A program made the translations under genes and the position numbers. A model generated the notes under the pieces. The model did not search any database. It saw only the letters and a list, made by a program, of their open reading frames with translations, and was not told the DNA's origin. This document shows positions 1 through 64,000 of a stretch of DNA of 64,000 nt, piece after piece. Numbering within the stretch: position 1 is the stretch's first letter; each line of letters starts with the position of its first letter. Source of the stretch: an uncultured Spirochaetales bacterium (GTDB lineage: Bacteria; Spirochaetota; Spirochaetia; Sphaerochaetales; Sphaerochaetaceae); assembly GCA_949297785.1 (NCBI GenBank), contig CASFTW010000008.1:1-64000 (forward strand), read 5' to 3'.

Positions 1-334
1 CCTGGTCTTTCTTCCAGTTCGTATTTCAGTATTGACAGAAGCCTCAAGCTTCTTTTACTTTCTCTCTTTTCCTTCGCTCATCAGTCTTTCAAAAATCTTC
101 TGCTCTCTTGCGAGTGCCTTGTCAACTTAGCAGATTCCCCTGCTTCCTGTCAAGCTATTTCCCTTCTTTTTTCTGAAGTTTTTTATGCTTGACATCGCGT
201 CAACGAGATAGGAATCTATCACAAGCAAAAAAGAAAAGCAAGAGCAAAATTGAAGTTTTTTCAATCTTTTTTGCTCATGCATGTCTAATTTCATAAGAGA
301 GAAAAAATTAGCTGTGTGAAAATTTTTCTGACTC
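1..334. other. Non-coding or unresolved edge region
   Basis: I see no convincing gene here. The one long frame (minus, about 86 codons) has unlikely composition. A small inverted repeat ATTGAA-loop-TTCAAT near 248-270 is followed by a T-run on the plus strand and could be a weak terminator downstream of the metallo-hydrolase. Two TGTCAA motifs at 120-125 and 148-153 read as TTGACA on the minus strand and might belong to a promoter for something beyond the left edge. No good -10 box accompanies them. Confidence 0.4.
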
Positions 335-1990
335 TTACTGCACCTCTGCATCGGCGTTCCATTTCTCCGCCAGATCCTCAAGATCACTTGTAAGACGCAT
401 CACTGCATTTGCCAGTCTGGTGCATTTCTTCTTATCCTGTCTGTCAACATTCGCACTTGCAAACTGGAAGCGCTCAAGCAGCCTGTCAATCCTGTCCTTT
501 TCGCTTTCAAGCTTGCTGAATGCTTCATTGAGTATCTTTGTATTACGGTCAATATAGACAGCCTTTTCCATTTCAGGCAATGGCAGATTCAGGTCATATG
601 TATCAAGCAGTTTAGGAGCACATACACTGTATCCCTCTCGGGCAAGCACACCGGCGAACTGAGGCGCGACATTCTCATCACCGTGAACGACGAATACTTT
701 GGAGGGTTTTTCCCTGAATTCATGAATCCAGCGCAAAAGCCCGGCTTTGTCAGCATGGCCCGAAAGACCTGGCAGACTTGCTATTTCCGCCTTGACATCG
801 ATCTGCTCACCGAAGATTGTCACGTGGGAAGCACCGTCGACAATATTCCGGCCGAGCGTACCACCCGCCTGATAACCCACAAAAAGAATCGTCGCCTCGC
901 TTCTCCACAGATTATGCTTGAGATGGTGCTTTATCCTTCCGGCATCACACATACCTGAACTGCTGATGATCACACAAGGTTCTTTTCTGTCATTGAGGGC
1001 TCTGGAATCTTTGACATTCTGACATTTGACGAGGGAAGGAAAATCCACGGGATTCAGTCCTTTATTGATAAGTTCCATGGCCTCTTCATCGAAATAATCG
1101 CCCCTGATCGAATTTCTGAATATGTTTGTCGCCCTGAGAGCAAGAGGACTGTCAAGGAACACCGGAATTTCATAGGGCAGCATCTTATGATCGGTTATTA
1201 TCCTGTAAAGATAGAGGATTTCCTGCGTGCGCCCGACGGCAAAAGACGGTATGATGAGCTTTCCGCCTCTTGCGAATGTCCTGTCTGTGATATCGGCAAG
1301 CAGTCTGGCACGCTCCTCCAGAGACAGCACATTCTTGTCATGAAGCCTGTCACCGTATGTCGATTCCATGATGACGACATCTGCATCGTTTATGTAATCA
1401 GGGTCCTTGATTATAGGCTGGTCGGTATTACCAATATCTCCTGAAAACACAAGCTTGCTGACATTCCCCTCTTCTTCTATGAACACTTCAATGCTTGCAG
1501 AGCCGAGAAGATGTCCGGCATCCACAAAACGTACATGGAGGTGTTCGTAAAGATTAAGCATCCTGTTATAGTCAACGCCCTCAAAGTGGTTCATGGTTTC
1601 ATAGGCATCATCCTGGGTATAAAGAGGCTCCACAAAAGCCTTACCTTTCCTTTTGTTCTTTCTGTTCTGCCATTCTGCCTCGCTTTCCTGAATATGAGCT
1701 GAATCAAGAAGCATTATCGAACAGAGTTCCTGTGTAGCCCTGGTGGCATATATCGTTCCTTTGAAACCTTCCTTCACAAGCTGGGGAAGACGTCCTGAAT
1801 GATCTATATGGGCATGCGTGAGAAGAACAAGATCTATGCTCGAAGGTGAAAACGGAAATGTATCTCCCGACTTTTTCTCATCTTCTCCCTGGCTCAGTCC
1901 GCAGTCAACCAGTATTCTGAATTCCTTTGTTTCCAGCAGGAACATTGATCCCGTAACCTGCCTTGCCGCTCCGCAAAATGTCAATGTCAT
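335..1990 (-). CDS. MBL-fold beta-CASP metallo-hydrolase (RNase/CPSF-like)
   Basis: A 551-residue protein of the metallo-beta-lactamase superfamily with beta-CASP and C-terminal RMMBL segments, the architecture of cytoplasmic RNA-processing nucleases related to RNase J and CPSF-73. The zinc motif HAHIDH is at residues 59-64. Later metal-site segments are visible: DAGHLLGSAS, then FSGDIG, then the C-terminal SGHAD. The SSSGMCDAGR segment is typical of beta-CASP proteins, and this length is usual for the CPSF-like bacterial branch. Translation starts at ATG 1990 with AAGGA eight bases upstream. A terminator at about 2058-2088 separates it from the ATPase operon, so it is probably a separate unit. 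The exact substrate cannot be read from the sequence. RNA is likely from family knowledge. Confidence 0.9.
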   Translation of the reverse strand: MTLTFCGAARQVTGSMFLLETKEFRILVDCGLSQGEDEKKSGDTFPFSPSSIDLVLLTHAHIDHSGRLPQLVKEGFKGTIYATRATQELCSIMLLDSAHIQESEAEWQNRKNKRKGKAFVEPLYTQDDAYETMNHFEGVDYNRMLNLYEHLHVRFVDAGHLLGSASIEVFIEEEGNVSKLVFSGDIGNTDQPIIKDPDYINDADVVIMESTYGDRLHDKNVLSLEERARLLADITDRTFARGGKLIIPSFAVGRTQEILYLYRIITDHKMLPYEIPVFLDSPLALRATNIFRNSIRGDYFDEEAMELINKGLNPVDFPSLVKCQNVKDSRALNDRKEPCVIISSSGMCDAGRIKHHLKHNLWRSEATILFVGYQAGGTLGRNIVDGASHVTIFGEQIDVKAEIASLPGLSGHADKAGLLRWIHEFREKPSKVFVVHGDENVAPQFAGVLAREGYSVCAPKLLDTYDLNLPLPEMEKAVYIDRNTKILNEAFSKLESEKDRIDRLLERFQFASANVDRQDKKKCTRLANAVMRLTSDLEDLAEKWNADAEVQ

Positions 1991-2057
1991 AAATTTATTC
2001 CTTATCTGTCCTAAAGTTTAAATCACCAGAAGAGAAAAGGAAATGTTTATTGTAAGA

Positions 2058-2088
2058 CACAAAAAAGACCCGGACATCATGCCGGGCC
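2058..2088 (-). terminator. Rho-independent terminator of the ATPase-usp-EIIA operon
   Basis: On the minus strand GCCCGG-loop-CCGGGT forms a six-pair stem (one G-U), followed by TCTTTTTT. It lies 28 bases beyond the EIIA stop codon and closes the long minus-strand operon. Confidence 0.85.
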
Positions 2089-2115
2089 GATGTAACCTGC
2101 AGACATTATGATGGA

Positions 2116-2562
2116 TCAGTCAAAAAACAGCTGATACACATCATCAGCACTCTTGCTTGATGCCAGCATTCTGACAAATACATCACTTGAACAGAGCCGG
2201 GCTATTGAAGCAAGAAGCTGGACATGCTCTGCAGGGTTTTCCTCACTTGCCAGGACAAGGAAGAAAATACTGCTTTTCTCACTGCCGCCGAAATCAACGG
2301 GAATACGGCTGATTCCGATGACCAGGGCACTTTCCTTGAGGAAAGGAATCTTTGCATGAGGTATGGCAATTCCCTTGTCCATTGCAGTTGAGCCGAGAGC
2401 CTCCCTGTCCAGTACAGCCTTCTTCACCGCATCCCTTTCACTTTCCGTGAGTTTTCTGCTGTCGGCAAAAAGATCAACCATGTCGGAAATGATTTCATTG
2501 CGGCTTGCGCTCTTGAGCGGATTTATAATCAAGTCTTTCTTTACGATATCCAAAAGTCCCAT
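2116..2562 (-). CDS. PTS fructose-type EIIA domain protein (PtsN-like)
   Basis: A 148-residue stand-alone EIIA domain of the fructose/nitrogen PTS family. The phosphoacceptor histidine is H69 in IAIPHAK, and the expected C-terminal ASIARL segment is present. Such proteins either pass phosphate from HPr to a sugar permease or act purely as regulators (PtsN). No EIIB or EIIC gene is nearby, and it is the last gene of the ATPase operon, three bases after the universal stress protein. A regulatory role linked to energy state is therefore more likely than transport. That link is inference from position only. Confidence 0.88.
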   Translation of the reverse strand: MGLLDIVKKDLIINPLKSASRNEIISDMVDLFADSRKLTESERDAVKKAVLDREALGSTAMDKGIAIPHAKIPFLKESALVIGISRIPVDFGGSEKSSIFFLVLASEENPAEHVQLLASIARLCSSDVFVRMLASSKSADDVYQLFFD

Positions 2563-2565
2563 AAG

Positions 2566-3057
2566 TCAAAGCTCCTCAAACATCTGCCATACGGCATCAT
2601 CATCGCGGCAAACCAGAACAGGACAGGTTGATGTGCGAAGCATCCTGTCGGTTTCACTTGTAAGCTCTTCTCTACGAGATCGTATCATATTAACGGAACC
2701 GAGAACAAGAAGGTCGATTTTATTCTCCTTGACATAGCGGCTGACTTCAGCATTGGGGCTGCCTTCAACAATGACGCTTGAAACACTCAGGTCTTTTGAC
2801 GCGGCAAGTTTCTCAATATGCCTTATATGCCTGTGCGCATCCTTATTGAGATCGGCAAGATACTCATTCTTCTCCTGGCTGACAAAGATTCTGGCTTTCA
2901 CCAGATCCCCAAGAGCCTTGGTGTTGACGCAGTAAAGCGCATGCAGCTGGCTGGATGAGCTTTTTGCAAGCAGAATCGCATACATGGCAGCACTCATTGA
3001 ACCTTCTGATCCATCAAGATAAACGAGTACCTTCCTGAACGGGAATTTAGCCTCCAT
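2566..3057 (-). CDS. Universal stress protein (UspA family)
   Basis: A 163-residue single Usp domain. The N-terminal strand KVLVYLDGSEGS and the C-terminal DLLVLGS...RMLRTSTCPVLVCR are the family signatures. The usual ATP-binding G-x2-G-x9-G-S/T loop is altered: GS-VNMIRSRR replaces it, and a Ser/Thr-rich stretch precedes CPVLV. ATP binding is therefore uncertain. It lies between ATPase subunit D (three bases) and EIIA (three bases), in one transcription unit. Confidence 0.9.
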   Translation of the reverse strand: MEAKFPFRKVLVYLDGSEGSMSAAMYAILLAKSSSSQLHALYCVNTKALGDLVKARIFVSQEKNEYLADLNKDAHRHIRHIEKLAASKDLSVSSVIVEGSPNAEVSRYVKENKIDLLVLGSVNMIRSRREELTSETDRMLRTSTCPVLVCRDDDAVWQMFEEL

Positions 3058-3060
3058 ACA

Positions 3061-3693
3061 TTATTCCTCCTTGTTTTCTCTTTCCATTCTGTCCTTGATG
3101 GATTTGAGCAGAATGAAATTCTCTCTCTCGGCTTCCTCTATCCTGCCGGTAAGATATTTTACCGTTTCCTCCTTATCGGGAATGACAAGTTTCTCAAGAG
3201 CATTTACCTTTCTGATTGTCTTCTTCACCTCACGGCTGAGACGCATGATGGACACCTTGAGCTCGGCCATCTGTCCCATAAGCCGGAGAGCTTCCTGATA
3301 TTTCTCCAGGGCGACCTCGGAAAGCATGCTGGTGCCTTCAGGGGAGAAGAAAGGACCTTCTCCGCAGAAACTCGTATGCACTTTCGGCAGAGACACGCCC
3401 ATCACCTTGCGCTTTCCAAGCTCGATTTCACTGGTGATGCTGACAGCACCCGCAAGGTTGCCGAGCCGGAGGCGGCCCATGTGCATGATTGCATCCTGAA
3501 GAGCCCTTTCAGCCTCCTTAAGAGATTTCTCCACCCTGTTCTGGTAATCCACAGCCTGATCGACAAGGGTGAGAAGCTCACTGACCAGAATACTTCTTTT
3601 CTGGTCCAGCAGCTCATAGCCCAGCTTTGAGAAAGCCAGCTCGTCCTTGACCTTCATCAGGTTGCTTCTTGTAGGAGCAATGCCTGCATCCAT
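3061..3693 (-). CDS. atpD: V/A-type ATPase subunit D
   Basis: A 210-residue subunit D, the central-shaft coiled coil that turns inside the A3B3 head and couples it to the membrane ring. The sequence starts with the family hallmark APTRSNLMKVK and is almost entirely long charged helices, with the conserved RRVNALE-type motif present as RKVNALE near the C-terminus. It follows subunit B by three bases. The length is typical for the family. Confidence 0.95.
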   Translation of the reverse strand: MDAGIAPTRSNLMKVKDELAFSKLGYELLDQKRSILVSELLTLVDQAVDYQNRVEKSLKEAERALQDAIMHMGRLRLGNLAGAVSITSEIELGKRKVMGVSLPKVHTSFCGEGPFFSPEGTSMLSEVALEKYQEALRLMGQMAELKVSIMRLSREVKKTIRKVNALEKLVIPDKEETVKYLTGRIEEAERENFILLKSIKDRMERENKEE

Positions 3694-3696
3694 ACT

Positions 3697-5106
3697 TTAC
3701 CCCTTGTAATGCTCACTGATCTCTTCTTCGGTGAGACGCTGGAGTTCTTCCGAGGGAAGAATCGAAAGCGCATCCCAGGCAAGATCAAGAGTCTGCTCGA
3801 TGGATCTGTCCTCATCAAAACTCTGATTGAGGAACTTATGCTCAAAGAAATCACCGAATTTGATATAAAGATGATCGACCTCCGTAAGCTCCTCCTCACC
3901 GATGACGGAAGCCAGATTCCTTACATCCTTTACATGACTGTAGGAAGCAAAAAGCTGGTTTGACAGGTGCGGATGATCTGCCCTGGTCATTCCTTCTCCG
4001 ATACCGTCCTTCATAAGACGGGAGAGTGACGGTGATACGTTTATAGGCGGATAGACATCCCTGCCGTTGAGCTCCCTGTCGAAAACGATCTGGCCTTCGG
4101 TTATGTATCCTGTAAGGTCCGGAATCGGATGCGAGATATCATCATTGGGCATGGTGAGAATCGGAAGCTGGGTTATCGAACCGCTGCGTCCTGCAATCTT
4201 TCCGGAGCGTTCGTATATCTCTGCAAGATTGGAATACAGATATCCGGGGTATCCTTTGCGGGAAGGAATCTCGCCGCGGAGCGTGCTGATTTCTCTCAGT
4301 GACTCACAGTAGTTTGTCATGTCGGTCATGATCACAAGAACCTGCTTGCCCTTGTCAAATGCAAGATACTCGGCAAGCGTCAGTGCTGTTCTCGGGGTGA
4401 TCGTCCTTTCAATCGACGGATCGTCCGCAAGAGAGAGGAAGAGTGCTACGTTATCAAGAACGCCTGTTTCCTCGAAGCTGTCGATGAAGTATTTCGCAAT
4501 ATCATATTTGACACCCATTGCTGCAAACACGATTGCAAAATCACTTTTGCCGCCGCGGACTTTTGCCTGGCGTGCGATCTGTGCCGCAAGCTGATTATGA
4601 GGAAGACCGTTGCCGGAGAAGATCGGAAGCTTCTGTCCCTGTATCAGTGTCGTCATGCCATCAATGACTGAAATACCTGTCTGGATGAAATCCCTGGGGT
4701 ACTCACGGCTTGTCGGGTTTATAGGTGCACCGTTGACATCCCTCTCCTCGCTGCCGCGGGGATCAGCTCCTCCGTCACGGCTCTTTCCCAGTCCGTTCAT
4801 GACACGGCCGAGCATCTCGTCCGTGACTGAAAGAGAAAGAGGTTCTCCGAGGAAGCGCATTTTCGTATCAGGAAGATTGAGGCCGTCTGTTCCCTCAAAC
4901 ACCTGCACGCATACGGCTTCATCGGAAGTGTCGAGCACCTGTCCCATTTTTCTTGAACCGTCGCCTGAAGTGATCTCAACAAGCTCACCGTAACCTACAG
5001 GATGCGTGTTCTTCATATATACAAGAGGTCCGTCTATACGGCTGGCCCCCCTGTATTCGCGTCCTTTGAGAAGGCTTCTGTCAATTATCATGTTATCATT
5101 CTTCAT
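3697..5106 (-). CDS. atpB: V/A-type ATPase subunit B (non-catalytic)
   Basis: About 469 residues. This is the regulatory, non-catalytic partner of subunit A in the A3B3 hexamer. It has the family segments [18 protein letters not shown] (a degenerate P-loop, as expected in B subunits), FAAMGV and [23 protein letters not shown] longer frame begins at 5127, but ATG 5106 has GGGAGG five bases upstream and gives the normal N-terminus. I prefer that start. It overlaps the end of subunit A by 11 bases, which suggests translational coupling. Confidence 0.95.
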
Positions 5107-6874
5107 ATAAGCCTCCCAGCTGGGCAAGCGAGCGGTGAAGTTTCAGCTCAAGCTTGTCTATATCCTCAATCTTGTCATTCGAGACATTGAAACGCATGCG
5201 CGATATATCCTGCACAACCGAAAGCCTTCTTATCTTCACCATCGGGACTCCCTTGCTGATGGCCTCGCTTCCCGCATCGTAGTACGAAAGGATGATGTTC
5301 ATCATCGCAATCTGCTTCTCGGGAGAACAGTAGCGGTCAATCTCGTCAAAGGCATTCTGCTGAAGGAATGCATTCTTGAAAAGAGTACAGACCTCGAGAA
5401 TGAAGTTCTGGCTGTCCGGAAGAGCATCAGAACCAACAAGTTTCACAATCTGCTGAAGCCTCGTTTCCTTCTGAAGCAGCTCCATGATCCTTGCCCTGTT
5501 CTTCGACCACTTGCCCTGACTCTTCTCGTCCCACCAGGACTTTACCTCTCCCACGTATTCGGAATAGGAATCAAGCCAGCTTATGGCAGGATAATGGCGG
5601 GCTGAGGCAAGCGCCCTGTCAAGTCCCCAGAAACAGCGGACAAAACGTCTTGTATGCTGGGTTACAGGTTCCGAGAAGTCGCCTCCCGGAGGGCTTACGG
5701 CACCGATTACGGAAACTGATCCTTCCTCTCCGCCCAGAGTCTTCACGTGTCCCGCCCTTTCATAGAACTGGGCGATACGTGTTGCAAGATAAGCGGGGAA
5801 TCCTTCTTCCGCAGGCATTTCCTCCATGCGGCCGGAAAGCTCTCTCAGAGCCTCTGCCCAGCGTGATGTGGAATCAGCCATTATTGCAACATCATAGCCC
5901 ATATCCCTGTAGTACTCAGCCATCGTGATACCGGTATAGATGCTTGCCTCACGTGCAGAAACCGGCATGTTGGAAGTATTGGCAATGAGAATCGTTCTCT
6001 CCATGAGACTCTTCCCGGTTCTCGGATCGATCAGATGCGGGAACTCCCTCAATACATCCGTCATCTCGTTTCCGCGTTCTCCGCAGCCGATATATACAAT
6101 TATGTCGGCATCACACCACTGTGCGATGGAATGCTGGGTCATTGTCTTTCCTGTTCCGAATCCTCCCGGAATGGCAACAGTTCCGCCTTTTGCCAGGGGA
6201 AAGAGAGAATCAATTACCCTCAGTCCCGTGATCAGCGGGATATCGAGGCCGAGCCTCTCCCTTATCGGACGCGGCACGCGGATCGGATGGTACTGCACCA
6301 TTGTAAGATCCTGACTGCTGCCGTTCTGCTCAACTGTGGCGATTGCGGATGTCACTGTATAATCGCCTTCATCCGCGACTGAAAGAAGCACGCCTTCTCC
6401 TTTGTAGGAGGAAGGAACCATTATCTTGTGCCTCACCCTGCTTGTCTCATCCACATAGCCGATAACGCAGCCGGCACTTACAGTGTCCCCGGTCTTTGCC
6501 TGAGGCACGAAATGCCAGAGCTTTTCCTCGCTTACAGCTGATGCGCTGATACCTTTTCCTATGAAATCGCCGCTGAGTTTTCTCAACTCTTCGAGCGGGC
6601 GCTGAATTCCATCATAAATATTGCCGATGAGCCCCGGGCCGAGCTGACAGGAAAGAGACATTCCTGAGCCATATACATTGTCACCCGGAGCTATTCCGGT
6701 TGCATCCTCATATACCTGAACTGTTGCAGTTGTACCGGACAGCTTGACAATCTCGCCTACAATCTGTCCCTCGCCGACATGAACGAGCTCCATCATTGCG
6801 GCATCCGTGATGTCCTTTACGATCAGTACAGGTCCGTTAACTCTTTTTACCTGTCCAATTATTCTGCCTTGCAT
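5096..6874 (-). CDS. atpA: V/A-type ATPase subunit A (catalytic)
   Basis: A 592-residue catalytic nucleotide-binding subunit. The Walker A loop GGFGTGKT is at residues 237-244 and the Walker B region is [18 protein letters not shown]. The large non-homologous insertion that distinguishes V/A-type A subunits from F-type beta lies between residues 110 and 200. In bacteria it may synthesise ATP or pump ions, and the direction cannot be read here. The gene overlaps the end of subunit E by 16 bases and the start of subunit B by 11. Confidence 0.97.
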
Positions 6875-7473
6875 GTATTTTCCTGTATAATCTTCTTAAT
6901 GTCTTTTGCCATACGTCTCAGTCTGACGTCAAGCTGATTGTTGAAATAGACCTTGCCGTCAAGACTTGAAAGCTGAACACCCCATCCGGAGACAGGCGCA
7001 TCATCAAGCTGGAGAGAGACTGAGAATCCTGTCTTCTCCATCAGCAGTTTCTCCGCCTGTCTGAGCATTGACTCATCAACTTTCTCTTTCGGATTATAGG
7101 CGACCTTCGCCTGTCTGTAACCGAGGCCGTATGCAGCTTCGGCAATCCAGGCGATAAGAGTGCTGCGTGATTCATCTGTCAGGAAATAGGAATCGAAATA
7201 AGCATCAACCTCTTTCTGAACGGCATTGTATGCAGCATCATTGTTCCTGAGTTCCCTGAGGCGCTCAAGGGAACGGACTGCACTTTCCTCCTTGAGGGAA
7301 AGGGCATCAAGACGCATCTTTGTGTTCTTTCTCTCTTCTTCCATTGTCTTTTCCGCCTTGTCTTCGGCTTCCTTCAGGATATCACCGGCTTCCTTCTGTG
7401 CCTTATATATCACTTTTTCAGCCTTAAGCCGGGCATCGGAAAGAATGCCTTCGAAAATAGGACTTTCACTCAT
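6859..7473 (-). CDS. atpE: V/A-type ATPase subunit E
   Basis: A 204-residue peripheral-stalk subunit. The N-terminal 90 residues are a continuous charged coiled coil rich in Lys, Glu and Ala. They are followed by a globular C-terminal half containing GWGVQLSSLDGKVYFNNQLDVRL, the typical end of subunit E. It pairs with the G/H subunit at the 5' end of the operon to form the stator stalk. It overlaps subunit F by four bases. Confidence 0.9.
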   Translation of the reverse strand: MSESPIFEGILSDARLKAEKVIYKAQKEAGDILKEAEDKAEKTMEEERKNTKMRLDALSLKEESAVRSLERLRELRNNDAAYNAVQKEVDAYFDSYFLTDESRSTLIAWIAEAAYGLGYRQAKVAYNPKEKVDESMLRQAEKLLMEKTGFSVSLQLDDAPVSGWGVQLSSLDGKVYFNNQLDVRLRRMAKDIKKIIQENTCKAE

Positions 7474-57351: not shown

Positions 57352-58617
57352 ATGGATAGAAAGACAGCAGAAGCAGCACTTGATACAGGTTTTATACACA
57401 CTCTCAGGGATCCGCTGTGGAAAGACATCGGACTTGACGATGCATTCAGGCATCTGTATCTGGAAAAGAACGTCCAGAAACTTGCAAACATAAAGCAGAA
57501 CGGTCCTGCCTGCAACATATACCCCGGTGCGGTTCATACGAGACTGATTCACAGTCTCGGGGTGTATCATGTGGGACGGCTGATCATGAAGAAACTGTGC
57601 ATGACAGGAGGAGAGGATTTCACATACACGGGAATACGCTCGTTTCTTGCCGCCTGTCTCCTCCATGATATCGGGCATTTCCCATATGCCCACTCTCTCA
57701 AGGAACTCAGCATCAGGGAGCATGAGGATCTTGCATGCGACCTCATAGACGGGGATGCAAGTCTGAACAAAGCAGTCAGACAGTGCGGTGCGGATCCGGA
57801 AACTGTCAAGCAGATAATCTCAAAGAGGAATATTGAAAACCGCGAGACTGAAATCTATTCGTCGCTGCTTTCGGGCGCTCTGGATCCGGACAAGCTGGAT
57901 TACCTGAACCGTGACGCTTTTTTCGCAGGCGTGCCTTACGGCCTTCAGGATACGGGATACATAATCTCGTCAATGAGACTGGAAAACGGCAAGCCCGCAC
58001 TGGTCCGTGAAGCCATTTCATCCCTTGAGCATCTGCTTTTCTCGAAATATCTGATGTACAGGAATGTCTACTGGCACAAAGGAGTGAGAAGCGCAACCGC
58101 AATGATCAAGAAAGCCCTGCTTGAAGGAATGCGTGACGGCATAATCAGCTGCAGCGATCTGTATTTCATAGACGACAATCAGTTCAGTCTCTTTCCTCGA
58201 ATACATGAAGGATATGAGCCGTTCCGCCTGATCACGAAGGTTTTCAGAAACCAGCTGTTCTCCCGTGTCTACGAAAAGCCATATGAGGAAGGAGGCAGGA
58301 TTGAAACGCAGGCTGCAGACCTGTTCAGACGGCTTGAAATCGAAAACTCGCTGTATGAAGAGCTGAAAAAGCATTATCCTGACCTGAAAGAATACGAAGT
58401 CGTGATCGACATTCAGGAACCTGTTTCGTTTGAAAGCAGCACAATGATCCTAAGTGATGAGGGCGCACTTCCATTCAGCGAAGTGACCCAGCTTTTCACA
58501 AAGGATGTTAACAGACAGTTCACATCATCACTGAGGAACGTATCGCTTTATGCGCCTCAGTATGTATCGGATAAACTTGCATCGGGAATAATAAATGAAT
58601 ACACAGGACAGGCTTGA
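57352..58617 (+). CDS. HD-domain phosphohydrolase (dGTPase-like)
   Basis: 421 residues. The HD metal motifs are HTRLIHSLGVYHVG and LLHDIGHFPYAHS (H105-D106), followed by LDPDKLDYLNRD, as in the HD superfamily related to SAMHD1 and dGTPases. It is probably a nucleotide phosphohydrolase, with substrate undefined. TATGAT at 57333-57338 is a candidate -10 box. It overlaps the TtcA-like gene by 23 bases. Confidence 0.9.
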   Translation: MDRKTAEAALDTGFIHTLRDPLWKDIGLDDAFRHLYLEKNVQKLANIKQNGPACNIYPGAVHTRLIHSLGVYHVGRLIMKKLCMTGGEDFTYTGIRSFLAACLLHDIGHFPYAHSLKELSIREHEDLACDLIDGDASLNKAVRQCGADPETVKQIISKRNIENRETEIYSSLLSGALDPDKLDYLNRDAFFAGVPYGLQDTGYIISSMRLENGKPALVREAISSLEHLLFSKYLMYRNVYWHKGVRSATAMIKKALLEGMRDGIISCSDLYFIDDNQFSLFPRIHEGYEPFRLITKVFRNQLFSRVYEKPYEEGGRIETQAADLFRRLEIENSLYEELKKHYPDLKEYEVVIDIQEPVSFESSTMILSDEGALPFSEVTQLFTKDVNRQFTSSLRNVSLYAPQYVSDKLASGIINEYTGQA

Positions 58618-59383
58618 CTACCGCACACTGATCAGCGGAGACATTCCGCCATGGGTCATGCGGTATATAAAAAGCGTCGGTAAGACAATAAACACATATT
58701 CAATGATCGGGGAAGGAGATGAAGTCCTTCTTGCTGTTTCAGGGGGAAAGGATTCGCTTGCCCTTGCGCTCGCACTTTCCCTCAGGCTCAAATGGCTGCC
58801 GGTTTCCTACCGCCTCAGGGCGCTTATGATAAACTGGATCGAACATCCCATTGAGGAAAGCTTCAGGGGAAAGCTATATGAATACTTCAACAGCCTCGGC
58901 ATTGATTTCACGATGCTTGACGAACACCAGTTCCCCTCTTCATTCAAAGGAGACTTCAACTGCTATCTCTGTTCGAGAAACCGCAGGAGGATACTCTTCG
59001 AATACGCTGCAAGGAACAACATCAGGCTGATAGCCATGGGACACCATCTTGACGACCTTGTCGAGACAAGTCTCATGAATCTGTGTTTCCGGGCATCCTT
59101 CACAACGATGCTTCCGGTCCAGGATTTCTTTGACGGCAGGCTTTTCATCATTAGACCGCTGATAGAAACGCACGAGAGTGTCACGAGGAGGCTGAGCGAA
59201 TGCTACAGCCTGCCTGTGATAAAACCGGTATGTCCATATGACCAGACAAATATAAGGGCACAGCTCAAGCCGATCGTTAAATCGTTATGTCATATAGATT
59301 CCCTTACAAGGGAACATATATACAAGGCTCACAATCTCAGAACTGATCTCCTTAAAAATCACTTAAATGGCGAAAATATGTGA
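58595..59383 (+). CDS. TtcA-like PP-loop tRNA thiolase
   Basis: 262 residues. The PP-loop SGGKDS starts near residue 49. CYLCSRNRRRILFEYA and GHHLDDLVETSLMNL are the segments that hold the Fe-S cluster cysteines and ATP site in TtcA (2-thiocytidine 32 synthesis). The paired cysteines in NCYLCSRNRR are seen, and the third is in KPVCPYDQ. It is likely tRNA sulfuration, with substrate assigned by family only. Confidence 0.88.
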   Translation: MNTQDRLDYRTLISGDIPPWVMRYIKSVGKTINTYSMIGEGDEVLLAVSGGKDSLALALALSLRLKWLPVSYRLRALMINWIEHPIEESFRGKLYEYFNSLGIDFTMLDEHQFPSSFKGDFNCYLCSRNRRRILFEYAARNNIRLIAMGHHLDDLVETSLMNLCFRASFTTMLPVQDFFDGRLFIIRPLIETHESVTRRLSECYSLPVIKPVCPYDQTNIRAQLKPIVKSLCHIDSLTREHIYKAHNLRTDLLKNHLNGENM

Positions 59384-59456: not shown

Positions 59457-61205
59457 ATGAGAAAACTTGTTACGCTTCTTGCCATATTCCTGACTGTCTT
59501 CACTTTGTCCGCCGGCGACGCACTTGTCATGAGCCGTGGAGACATTGACTCGGTGAGACTTTACTCCCCCACAGGATCTGCCGAGGATCCGATAAGCGAA
59601 ATACTGGAGGACGGCTATATCATCATAAGCGGGAGCAGTGACAGCTCATTCTCCTCGGTCTTCGGAGAGATAGACCTGAAACCGTATACGACCCTTGCGG
59701 TCACGGGCTACAATCTCACGGCCCCAAGTCTCTACCTGCTTGACGGACAGATGACACTTTCCCTGGCAGGAATCGGCAACATGGTGGTTTATACATCAAG
59801 TGCCAGCTATTCAGTTTCCGGCAGCGGGGAATATGAATTCATATACACTGCCGAAGCAGACATGGCTTACAACTACTCTGCCGGTGATATCACAGTTTAT
59901 GACGGAATCAGGAAGACCTCTTCCGTCATTGAGCCGCAGCACTTCTCAAATCTCCTGACAAATGAACTCAATGTACCGATGGTGATGCCTCAGGCTGAAG
60001 AAGAGGAAGCGGAAATCATCCAGCCGGCTGAAGAGCCTGTCGTGGTAAGCGGCAGCTATTACCTGAGAGACAACAGTGTTGACTACGACTTCTCCACTGC
60101 AGGATACGGCACGCTGCGCTACAGCATTCCGGAGCTTCCTTCCTTCGATGCGGATGCATTCATAAAGGGCTATGCCGGATACACCTCGATTCCGCAGGTC
60201 ATGAGCGTCATTTACGATGCTTCTGAGGAGGGAATCATAAATCTCGTCTACCCCGCCTGCAGCGAAGATGATCTGAATTATGTAATCGCCGACATCTATG
60301 ACTATGCAGTACAGTGCATCAGTGCTCTTTACGTACCTGCCGCTCCTCAGTTCATCAAGGTGCAGACCACTGTTGACAGACAGGCCAGGGATTATATTGT
60401 CAGCACATCATACAGTGCATACTCACAGACCCTGGAGTTTGAGTTCTCCACTGCAGGAAGCGGAAAGATCACCTACCCTGCGGCACTGATCAGCAGAGAT
60501 GACATTGACCGCTTCATGATGAGCTATGCCTCTGCATCTGATTACGCAGAAGTGAAGGATGTGATCTATGACACGGATGGGGAAGGCACCGTGACCTTCA
60601 CATATTCCCCGGACTTCACCGAAGAGGAGATCAGGATGGTGCTTGATGATGTCAAGGCCTATCTTGACCTCTACATTCCGCGCCTCTTCTCCCTCAGGGC
60701 TCCTCAGTTCACAGATGTTGACACAACAGCCGATACAAGCATCATAAAAGGCACACATATCATAGCCGGAGTACCGGTTGACTTCATCCTCTCCACAGGT
60801 GGAAACGGCTACGTCCTTTACCCATCCGGCATTGTAAATGAGGAAGATATCGACAGTTTCATGAAAAGCTATGTGCTTGATACGGATTTCGATGAGGTGA
60901 AGAATGTTGTCTATGATGCCTCCCGGGACGGAAAGCTCCGCCTGAGATACAGTGATGCATACAGCACGGAGGAGATTGAAGCCGTTCTTGAAGATGTTGC
61001 ATCATACATCGATCTCTATATCGCAGGATATTTCTCACTCAAAGCTCCTGAGACGGAAACTTTCATCGAGATCCTTCCCCCTGCCCCTTCCAGCAATATT
61101 GTGGTAAGGACCACAGCCGATGGCGGTATTCATTCCGTACCTGTAATGAATTCTGATGTACCGCCGGCACCGGCATTCACATCCGTTGAGCTAAAAAAAA
61201 ACTAG
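59457..61205 (+). CDS. Secreted FecR-like protein with three tandem repeats (5' part of a split gene)
   Basis: 582 residues up to TAG 61203. A signal peptide (LVTLLAIFLTVFTLSAG, cut near residue 20) is followed by a FecR-like segment (EILEDGYIIISGSSDSSFSSVF...YLLDGQMTLSLAG..MVVYTSSASYSVSGSGEYEF, about 45-150). An acidic linker leads to three repeats of about 117 residues (starting near 198, 315 and 432). Each repeat runs from F-S-T-A/G-G-x-G through D-D-I-D-x-F-M/I-x-x-Y to VxxVIYD and EEIxxVLxDVxxYxDLYI. The frame stops after a nine-A run, and the downstream frame continues as a beta-barrel. AGGAA lies 10 bases before the ATG. Confidence 0.78.
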   Translation: MRKLVTLLAIFLTVFTLSAGDALVMSRGDIDSVRLYSPTGSAEDPISEILEDGYIIISGSSDSSFSSVFGEIDLKPYTTLAVTGYNLTAPSLYLLDGQMTLSLAGIGNMVVYTSSASYSVSGSGEYEFIYTAEADMAYNYSAGDITVYDGIRKTSSVIEPQHFSNLLTNELNVPMVMPQAEEEEAEIIQPAEEPVVVSGSYYLRDNSVDYDFSTAGYGTLRYSIPELPSFDADAFIKGYAGYTSIPQVMSVIYDASEEGIINLVYPACSEDDLNYVIADIYDYAVQCISALYVPAAPQFIKVQTTVDRQARDYIVSTSYSAYSQTLEFEFSTAGSGKITYPAALISRDDIDRFMMSYASASDYAEVKDVIYDTDGEGTVTFTYSPDFTEEEIRMVLDDVKAYLDLYIPRLFSLRAPQFTDVDTTADTSIIKGTHIIAGVPVDFILSTGGNGYVLYPSGIVNEEDIDSFMKSYVLDTDFDEVKNVVYDASRDGKLRLRYSDAYSTEEIEAVLEDVASYIDLYIAGYFSLKAPETETFIEILPPAPSSNIVVRTTADGGIHSVPVMNSDVPPAPAFTSVELKKN

Positions 61206-63655
61206 GGTATAACATACCTGTCTACACCAGAATAACAGATGAGACAGATGACAGGGAGGATAGCGTTGACTATGCTCCCGACAGTCCTTTCGACATCCTC
61301 ATTTCTGCAGTCGCAAGACACAGCGGAGACGGGGATGTCAGTTTTTCTCTCTTTTTTCAGCCGCAGTACATTACCGGTGACCTTGCCGTCCGCATCAATA
61401 TTGATCCTTACCGCATAAGTACATTCAGGGACGGAAGCACACTGCGCTTCTACTGGAATTTTTTCTCTTCATTCATAGATGAATTCAGCTATTTTCATGA
61501 AGACGTGTTTTCAATCCGTCTCTCAGATGACCTGATAATCCCCTCTGATCCTTTCGGTATCGCAAGCGCTATCACGGGATCATTCCACAGCAATGAAGAG
61601 CGTCTGCCATTCATCGCATCGCTTGATACACAAAATTACTCCCACATGATCAGCTACAGCGATGTCTCACTCTCATCGGAGACAGGATTTTTCATGTATC
61701 GGGGCAATACAGCATCACATTCATCAGACCTGAATGCAGGACTGGCCCTGCTCGCCACAGTCAATCACGGAGATTTGTCACAGACAGCATTCTATCCCCA
61801 GTTTTTCGTCTACAGGGATTTCACGGACTTCACCGGCGGAAGCCTCTCACTCCAGCTGAACTCGGCACTCAGAATAAGTCCGGAAGGCTTTGACGGCTGG
61901 GGTATGGCACTGTCTCTTCCCCTTACAACGAAAAACCTCAGCTTCACAAGCGGACTTGCCCTTACCGGCGGAGCGCTGCAGTACGGAGAATACCTGAACG
62001 GCTATTACACAAGAAGGGAAAATGAGGACACACTCATGCTTTTTTCCCGACTGCTGTATGAAATAGAGGACTTCTCCGTCGTCATTGACATGCAGCTTCC
62101 CATCGATCTTGATCCATTCAGGATCATAAAGGGGGAGGATTATTTCTCAGTTGAAGCTTCCACAGATTTCTTCGGCATCTCCCTCGATGGAGGTTTCAGG
62201 GCAAGAGGTCTTTTCACCGACTTCTCAAGAGCAGTCAGAGAATACAGGGAAGCTTTCGTGTCACTTGGCTACAGCAACAGGGCAATAAGCACGGATATAT
62301 CATTCTCAATTGACCAGAACAGACAGTCTTCACTCACGCTCAGTGCAACACTGAGTTCATATCATGCCCTCTTCTCACGTGACGGGAATCTGTCCACAAG
62401 CCCCGGCTGGCTTGATATCGCACTGTACACAGGATACATGCAGGAACCTTCCCCCTCCGTATTCCTCCGCCCGGTAATAAGATTCAACTGGAGCCGGGAA
62501 AGCAACATCGCACTGCGCATTCCCCTGAGCTTCTCAATAGAGGATGGAGCAATCACGCTTTCATCCGGCAGCAGGAATGATGACTGGTTCGATTTCGGTT
62601 TCGGACGCGATTCGACCTTCAATGTGGTATATGACTTCATCACTGACGTCTTCTCGCTTGTCGAATCGATACACATAGGAGGGAAGGATATCGGAATATA
62701 TCTCAATGCGGAAAGAAAGGGTATTGCCGACATTTCCCTCTTCAGCGATACATACAGGAATTACGGAAAGGAAAACAGTCTGTCTCTCACCTTCGGTTTC
62801 AGCGTAAAGGAGAAAGCTGATGTGAAGGCTTTCGTGAACAATATGGAGAGACCTGATATTTTCGCATTGTCAATAGCCGTCATGCCGATGGGAGATGACG
62901 GGCCCCGGCTCATACTCGACAGTGCACTGAATATTCTCTTCAGCGAAGATGACTACAAGGCGGAAACAGCGCTGGAGATGTCACTTGAAAAAGATTTCAG
63001 CGAAGGAATAAGCACTGCATTATATGTGAACACCTATCTTGACTTCTCACCTCACGATTTCAATCTTCACATCACAAGTGCGGATGACCTCTCGCTTTCA
63101 GCAGGCCTCAGGTTTGAAACACAGGCCGGCCGCTTCACTTTCCCCCTCTCGCTGGGATTCAACAGCGGCAAGGCAAGGGAGTATTACTTTGACACATTCA
63201 CATACAGGAATCATGATTCAATCGGCAGCACGCCTTTCCTTGAGGGTTTCCACTTCTTCCTGAAAAGCGGTATCCGATGGGAAAGCGGAAGGTTTGCACT
63301 TTCGCTTGACTGGCAGATCAATTCAATGCCTTCCCTCTTTGAGGACTGCGAAAGCGACGACATCCTCGCTCTCGGCTTTTCATACAGCACCGGAGACTTC
63401 CTCATCAGCCTCGATTTCATCAGAAGGAACCTCGTCTCATCACTGAAGGATCCGGGAAATCCTGAGGCATTCTTCCTGAATGATGATTCCGTTTTCTCAA
63501 TATCAGTGGAAAAGACACTCGGACATCTGAGCTTCCAGGCATCGCTCTATTCCGCTCAGCGCTATGAGGCTGATGATGAATACCTGAACGGGATAAAAAT
63601 GGAAAAGAACTCGACTTATCCTGCATTTTCGCTTATAACAAGCTTGAGGTTCTGA
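61190..63655 (+). pseudogene. Outer-membrane beta-barrel domain (3' part of the split gene)
   Basis: The frame opens at 61190, just after a stop in that frame, and runs without a stop to 63655, about 820 codons. The first 100 codons before the best start (GTG 61505) read as good protein (GYNIPVYTRITDETDD, then FDILISAVARHSGDG), so the domain is part of the upstream gene. The rest alternates hydrophobic and polar residues with many aromatic ends and a terminal SLITSLRF, typical of an outer-membrane barrel C-terminus. No ribosome-binding site precedes 61505. In-frame joining would give 1399 residues. It is labelled a pseudogene only because the sequence as given is out of frame. Confidence 0.72.
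61193..61218 (+). promoter_or_regulatory. Possible -1 frameshift site or phase-variable A9 tract
   Basis: Zero-frame codons CTA-AAA-AAA-AAC-TAG contain the canonical slippery heptamer A-AAA-AAC directly before the stop. A five-pair hairpin GGTAT-AAC-ATACC starts three bases after the stop. A -1 slip, or a tenth A, joins the two frames exactly. Confidence 0.5.
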
Positions 63656-63658
63656 ATA

Positions 63659-64000
63659 ATGGAAATAAAACCACTGGAGAGTACACTGAGGGCGAGGATC
63701 GCCGCAGGAGAAGTCATAGAGCGGCCGCAGAGTGTCGCAAGGGAGCTTATCGACAATGCGATCGACGCAGGTGCCGATGAGATAACACTTTCAATCAGGG
63801 GAGGCGGAATCGATGAGCTCACGCTTACTGACAACGGAAAGGGAATAAGCAAAGAAGACCTGCCTCTTGCCGTAACGCAGTATGCAACCAGCAAGATAGC
63901 AAAACTGGATGATCTTTATCACCTGAGTAGCATGGGTTTCCGCGGAGAAGCCCTGCACTCCGTCGCCGCTGTCTCAAAACTCACGATCGCATCTTCATGG
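63659..64000 (+). CDS. mutL: DNA mismatch repair protein MutL, N-terminal part (window edge)
   Basis: 114 codons, cut by the window end. The GHKL ATPase motifs are complete: RIAAGEVIERPQSVARELIDNAIDAGA (Walker-like helix with the catalytic Glu), DNGKGIS, and the lid GFRGEAL. ATG 63659 lies three bases after the previous stop, so it may share its transcript. The C-terminal dimer or endonuclease half is not visible. Confidence 0.97.
   Translation, partial: MEIKPLESTLRARIAAGEVIERPQSVARELIDNAIDAGADEITLSIRGGGIDELTLTDNGKGISKEDLPLAVTQYATSKIAKLDDLYHLSSMGFRGEALHSVAAVSKLTIASSW

Follow-up and report, generated by a model that had tools for sequence, protein, structure and literature searches.

To our knowledge, only a few ordinary chromosomal genes of bacteria have a well-supported programmed change of frame. 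In tssM of Citrobacter rodentium and Yersinia pseudotuberculosis, a run of eleven adenines (A11) stands before a stop codon, and the gene yields two length variants, both of which are needed (PMC4256274). In dnaX, transcriptional slippage on a run of nine adenines (A9) is used by Thermus thermophilus and ribosomal frameshifting on A_AAA_AAG by E. coli (PMC5009743, PMC1088944), and this gene is the precedent for orthologues that have different slippage agents (PMC3711429). A run of nine is long enough for efficient slippage in bacteria (PMC5009743), and where homologues keep a run at exactly nine, a purposeful use of it is stated to be very likely (PMC1088944). The frameshift-prone heptamers that have been examined in E. 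coli include A_AAA_AAA, A_AAA_AAC and C_CCU_UUC (PMC4066793). Our search of the literature for programmed frameshifting in spirochaetes or in outer-membrane barrels found no relevant case.

The locus described here lies in a window of 64,000 nucleotides (the whole stretch of DNA that was analysed) from contig 8 of a draft genome that has 2.22 Mb in 50 contigs. In this window, a surface-protein gene between a tilS-like gene and mutL is split by an A9 run, and an outer-membrane beta-barrel follows in the -1 frame. We consider that the locus is very probably one gene that is expressed through programmed recoding as a short and a long form.

The split gene and its two parts

The features of the locus are listed below, together with a palindrome that an earlier reading of the DNA, made from the letters and here called the sequence-only reading, had proposed as a stimulator of frameshifting.

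58595..59383, + strand, tilS-like gene (ORF call; the same neighbour in relatives)
59457..61205, + strand, 0-frame ORF of 582 amino acids, the short product (ORF call, homologues)
60048..61100, + strand, three repeats of about 117 residues, at amino acids 198-314, 315-431 and 432-548 (sequence comparison)
61193..61201, + strand, A9 run at the frame switch (sequence, homologue comparison)
61193..61199, + strand, in-register heptamer A_AAA_AAA (sequence)
61196..61202, + strand, in-register heptamer A_AAA_AAC (sequence)
61203..61205, + strand, 0-frame stop TAG, end of the short product (sequence)
61206..61218, + strand, palindrome GGTAT-AAC-ATACC, the proposed stimulator (not conserved)
61202..63655, + strand, -1 frame of 817 amino acids, outer-membrane beta-barrel (ORF, homologues, model)
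63659..64000, + strand, mutL, the downstream neighbour, which runs off the window (sequence, relatives)

The 0-frame ORF starts with ATG at 59457, and its final codons are GAG CTA AAA AAA AAC TAG, so that the TAG at 61203 stands directly after the A9 run (61193-61201) and a C. The -1 frame has no stop between 61190 and the TGA at 63653-63655, and 817 residues are counted from the switch. The coordinates and frames of the sequence-only reading were confirmed, and its frame arithmetic is correct, as 582 and 817 residues and a stop make 1400 codons. It had also described about 100 codons of the downstream frame as having no start, and the first possible start in the -1 frame is indeed GTG at 61505.

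The ORF at 59457-61205 encodes an apparent signal peptide, an all-beta N-terminal domain and the three repeats. Judged by this signal peptide, which was read by eye, the short form would be secreted. The all-beta prediction comes from residues 23-175 of the homologue in G010 (pLDDT of about 90). A fold search with the N-terminal model returned nothing, and searches of both halves against Pfam, NCBIfam and PDB sequences found nothing at the family cut-off; the label FecR-like, previously attached to this part, thus has no match in Pfam or NCBIfam and none by fold. The repeats are real, with pairwise identities of 29-39%; three copies are present in the window's species and its two nearest relatives, and one copy is present in the other members of the genus. 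Further ORFs (L034 and L037, at G013:C1 ~351000) match the repeat of about 117 residues several times and, by these matches, the repeat occurs in further proteins of the genus.

The AlphaFold model of the downstream part consists mostly of long beta strands (pLDDT 76). The best Foldseek matches of this model are LptD, FecA, BtuB and SlpA (E 1e-7 to 1e-5), with global TM scores of 0.1-0.2, by which a class is assigned and not a family. Many long strands, a C-terminal strand ending in F and a barrel-like fold are all present, as in an outer-membrane beta-barrel, and the class of large barrel that had been suggested for this part is backed by the long-strand model and by the fold matches to large barrels. 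No start codon stands at the junction and the barrel lacks its own signal peptide; by the sequence, it is reached only by a frame change. Therefore, the barrel depends on the upstream part.

Conservation of the frame switch

We searched 16 genomes of the window's genus, the named relatives being uncultured Spirochaetales assemblies and Candidatus Aphodenecus pullistercoris. All 16 members have homologues of the N-terminal protein and 10 have the barrel; when the search was widened to the order, no genome outside the family was gained. The ten barrels all lie at -1 to the upstream ORF and between the same neighbours, with intact frames of 811-832 codons and identities of 33-89% to the barrel of the window. 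The overlap of the two frames contains an in-register X_XXY_YYZ sequence in 10 of 10 and an ATG, GTG or TTG start in none of them. This sequence is A9 followed by C in five members (G000, G013, G014, G012 and G002) and C_CCT_TTC in five (G009, G008, G015, G010 and G011), whose five genes contain no A-run longer than six.

At the C-type loci, there is hardly any variation from CCCCTTTC to.TGGTG...CCCTGG, a block that lies amid poorly conserved sequence. The approximately 30 nt after C_CCT_TTC are nearly invariant in nucleotides (L044, L047, L048, L049 and L050), and the 0-frame stop is located exactly 30 nt past the heptamer in four of the five loci. This near-invariant stretch is possibly an RNA signal that folding missed.

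Six members of the genus have the N-terminal protein only (L051-L056, in G001, G005, G007, G003, G006 and G004). At these loci, the N-terminal gene is followed by mutL wherever the contig reaches far enough. The retention of the N-terminal protein without the barrel in six members speaks for a role of the short form on its own.

In a second genus of the same family (g10), homologues were found in 40 genomes. The N-terminal domain and the barrel sequence are carried in one uninterrupted frame in 23 of them, the homologue is cut by the contig end in 6, and the gene is split in 11. All 11 splits are at -1, and all 11 have exactly A9 and then C at the switch. However, the codon register differs between the two genera, being GAA AAA AAA ACN in g10 and CTA AAA AAA AAC in the window's genus. 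Six related g10 loci have the nine adenines and the TAG identical, while most of the flanking codons vary. In the tree, the ten genes of the window's genus form one clade, and the eleven split genes of g10 form another, together with a fused gene of G065. This single-frame homologue (L124, oriented ORF 3393-7064) contains A9C in frame about 1180 nt into the ORF, and the other two frames have stops at distances of 4 and 7 codons. The layout is like that of Thermus dnaX, and slippage would make the short form there.

The other genera of the family carry long fused forms, and at the five loci with a detected tilS this gene is immediately upstream, the tilS-like gene being the upstream neighbour of the split gene as well. 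The middle part of the fused protein differs between genera. A distant fused homologue on the - strand (L156 in G088, ORF 1-3885) has the stretch IAHTNDGMGSL...LLLDAGNTVGGS ahead of the barrel, and this stretch resembles, by eye, a 5'-nucleotidase/metallophosphatase domain. Single-frame homologues are thus found in other relatives, which shows the fused protein to be genuine. The sequence-only reading had named such homologues, lacking the A-run, as evidence against its proposal; they do exist in other relatives, but programming in the split lineages is not refuted by them. Because other genera carry long fused forms, the fused form is likely the ancestral state. The split would have arisen once or twice, and the different registers favour two origins, depending on the root.

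All 21 split homologues (10 in the window's genus and 11 in g10) are split at -1 and none at +1, and the frame switch is at the same place, between the N-terminal part and the barrel, in every one. A slip-prone sequence in register is present at the switch in 21 of 21, although these loci are related by descent and represent fewer than 21 independent observations. The slip-prone sequence is A9 and C in 16 loci, in two codon registers, and C_CCT_TTC in 5. With every split at -1 and a slip-prone sequence at each, the programmed -1 change giving a short and a long form, which was one of three earlier readings of the locus, is strongly supported.

The tract is exactly nine adenines long in every A-type split homologue (16 of 16) and also in the fused gene of G065, as read from assemblies, nearly all of which are draft or metagenome assemblies. 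Among the 16 A9-type genes, A-runs of length 5 occur 32 times and those of length 6 occur three times, lengths 7 and 8 never occur, and length 9 occurs once per gene, always at the switch. AAA accounts for 37-39% of the lysine codons outside the site in these genes, and the 0-frame stop is located 0-6 codons past the run in all split homologues of the A9 type. Runs of A9 are rare in the source genome, which contains 19 exact ones in 2.22 Mb, mostly outside ORFs or at ORF ends, and among the A9 sites examined in it only the run at 61193-61201 splits a long gene. Another A9 of the same genome (L140, G000:C3:113964) is inside an ORF of about 545 codons that is unsplit; slippage at this run would truncate the product. 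The dN/dS values are approximately 0.06-0.23, in the barrel and the N-terminal part alike, with saturated dS in some pairs, and these values indicate that both parts are under purifying selection.

The agent of the frame change and competing explanations

We propose that standard decoding would end at the TAG at 61203 and give a secreted protein of 582 residues, and that a fraction of expression would shift to the -1 frame at A9 and give a protein of 1399 residues, in which the same N-terminal part is fused to the large outer-membrane beta-barrel. We infer both the production of the two forms and their ratio from the sequences, and the function may be to set the dose of the barrel-anchored form against that of the free N-terminal form. 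At A9, the agent may be RNA polymerase, which would add an extra A to the transcript. Slippage by this enzyme takes about nine adenines. Because the run is strictly nine in two registers, we tilt towards this agent, at slightly better than even chances. Conservation of the run in length among homologues, on which a purposeful use is recognised (PMC1088944), is observed at the A-type loci and not at the five C_CCT_TTC loci. The C_CCT_TTC sequence of the five congeners is not a homopolymer and is for this reason most simply taken as a ribosomal site; we regard ribosomal slippage there as probable. The proximity of stops in the third frame was considered as a mark of RNA-polymerase slippage and rejected, as near stops of the kind known from Thermus dnaX occur in the A9 loci but in the C_CCT_TTC loci as well.

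A tandem -1 slip of tRNA-Lys/tRNA-Lys or tRNA-Lys/tRNA-Asn might allow the ribosome alone to act at A9, which would alter the agent only. Two in-register heptamers overlap in the run, namely A_AAA_AAA (61193-61199) and A_AAA_AAC (61196-61202); the sequence-only reading had named the latter. Both cause shifting in E. coli (PMC4066793). In the window both are in register, as A_AAA_AAA is at all 16 A9-type loci, and the heptamer of the five congeners is no homopolymer. However, six or seven adenines would suffice for the ribosome, yet nine are found in two registers, and folding revealed no conserved downstream structure. When the 60 nt after the site were folded for the 21 loci, no consistent structure was found; the folding z-scores were near 0 in most loci and strong only in L046, and the consensus fold of the five C-type loci was a weak helix of 7 pairs with no compensatory changes. 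The hairpin GGTAT-AAC-ATACC (61206-61218), which had been placed three bases after the stop, begins immediately after it. This hairpin does not form in the predicted fold of minimum energy, and the loci have no hairpin in common. Thus, for a ribosome acting on a textbook heptamer with a hairpin, as originally envisaged, the heptamers are there, but the hairpin is not conserved, and slippage of RNA polymerase fits at least equally. A purine-rich stretch resembling a Shine-Dalgarno sequence was seen by eye upstream of A9 in several loci, at a short spacing, and a conserved acidic residue can explain this stretch. We consider action of the ribosome alone at A9 to be quite possible, with the chances lying somewhat against it; -1 slippage on the overlapping A_AAA_AAA and A_AAA_AAC could be an alternative to RNA polymerase or its helper.

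With RNA polymerase as the preferred agent at A9 and the ribosome at C_CCT_TTC, the same two-product output would be reached by different agents within one genus, and the second genus would have reached it independently in another register. We offer this as a tentative proposal whose chances fall just short of even. If it is true, the selected trait would be the ratio of the free to the barrel-anchored N-terminal part and not the mechanism.

A further reading offered from the sequence alone is phase variation, in which 10 or 7 adenines would give an ON state and 9 an OFF state. The tract would change in length at replication, and cells would differ in whether the barrel is made. A homopolymer in a surface-protein gene is the classical layout of a contingency locus, and surface proteins dominate the contingency (phase-variable) genes (PMC3711429). 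However, none of the 16 A-type split homologues departs from nine adenines, nor does the fused gene of G065, and no A8 or A10 allele occurs among the homologues. Moreover, the -1 split is kept without a tract in five congeners, and the barrel is under purifying selection. Given a tract of constant length and a split that persists where the tract is absent, we consider phase variation to be very unlikely.

Still more improbable is an arrangement of two translationally coupled genes in which translation of the barrel would begin afresh close to the upstream stop. Overlapping stop/start pairs would likewise give a -1 relation, and a TTG is present 7 codons past the switch in two g10 loci. However, the remaining 19 of the 21 loci offer no ATG, GTG or TTG in the -1 frame until 20-178 codons past the switch, at no common position, and the barrel half would be without a signal peptide. 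Separate initiation is hardly credible because no start is conserved.

Homopolymers are error-prone in sequencing, the window belongs to a draft assembly in 50 contigs, and the reading frame is interrupted, as in a decaying pseudogene; however, the same A9 and -1 split occur in separate genomes from different projects (16 separate assemblies for the A9), a site that is not a homopolymer takes the place of A9 in five, dN/dS is approximately 0.06-0.23 in both halves and the barrel frames of 811-832 codons are intact in ten and, therefore, both a one-base sequencing or assembly error in a gene truly in one frame and a pseudogene are excluded.

Comparison with known systems

Homologues of this one gene that are fused, split at A9 and split at C_CCT_TTC, together with species that have the N-terminal protein only, constitute a natural experiment, and the family allows a direct test of whether the ratio of the two length variants is what selection maintains. 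Furthermore, to a gene caller the barrel will look like a fragment without a start and the N-terminal part like a full protein, and such surface proteins can thus be overlooked.

The split gene resembles the orfA/orfB genes of insertion-sequence transposases, in which overlapping ORFs are joined at an A-run or at X_XXY_YYZ (PMC1088944, PMC4066793). However, those genes belong to mobile elements, whereas the split surface gene sits in the chromosome, with tilS and mutL on either side. With phase-variable surface genes it shares the homopolymer, but here the tract length is invariant across species and the split is kept without the tract. The likeness to dnaX extends to the A9 run, the nearby stops in the other frames and, as proposed here, the two product lengths and an agent that differs by lineage. 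The proteins are unrelated, and slippage in dnaX leads to the shorter protein, whereas here it would lead to the longer one, except in G065 with its Thermus-like layout.

We consider tssM to be the nearest functional parallel. In both cases, a poly-A run before a stop splits the gene of a cell-envelope protein; slippage gives a short and a full-length form in tssM and would do so here. The tssM run is A11, its product is an inner-membrane protein of the type VI secretion system and its slippage is transcriptional by experiment, whereas the present run is A9, the product is an outer-membrane barrel and the evidence is comparative only. The second type of slip site in congeners is a feature of the split surface gene that contrasts with tssM. 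Therefore, the kind of mechanism is already known from tssM and dnaX, and the split surface-gene family is a new case of it.
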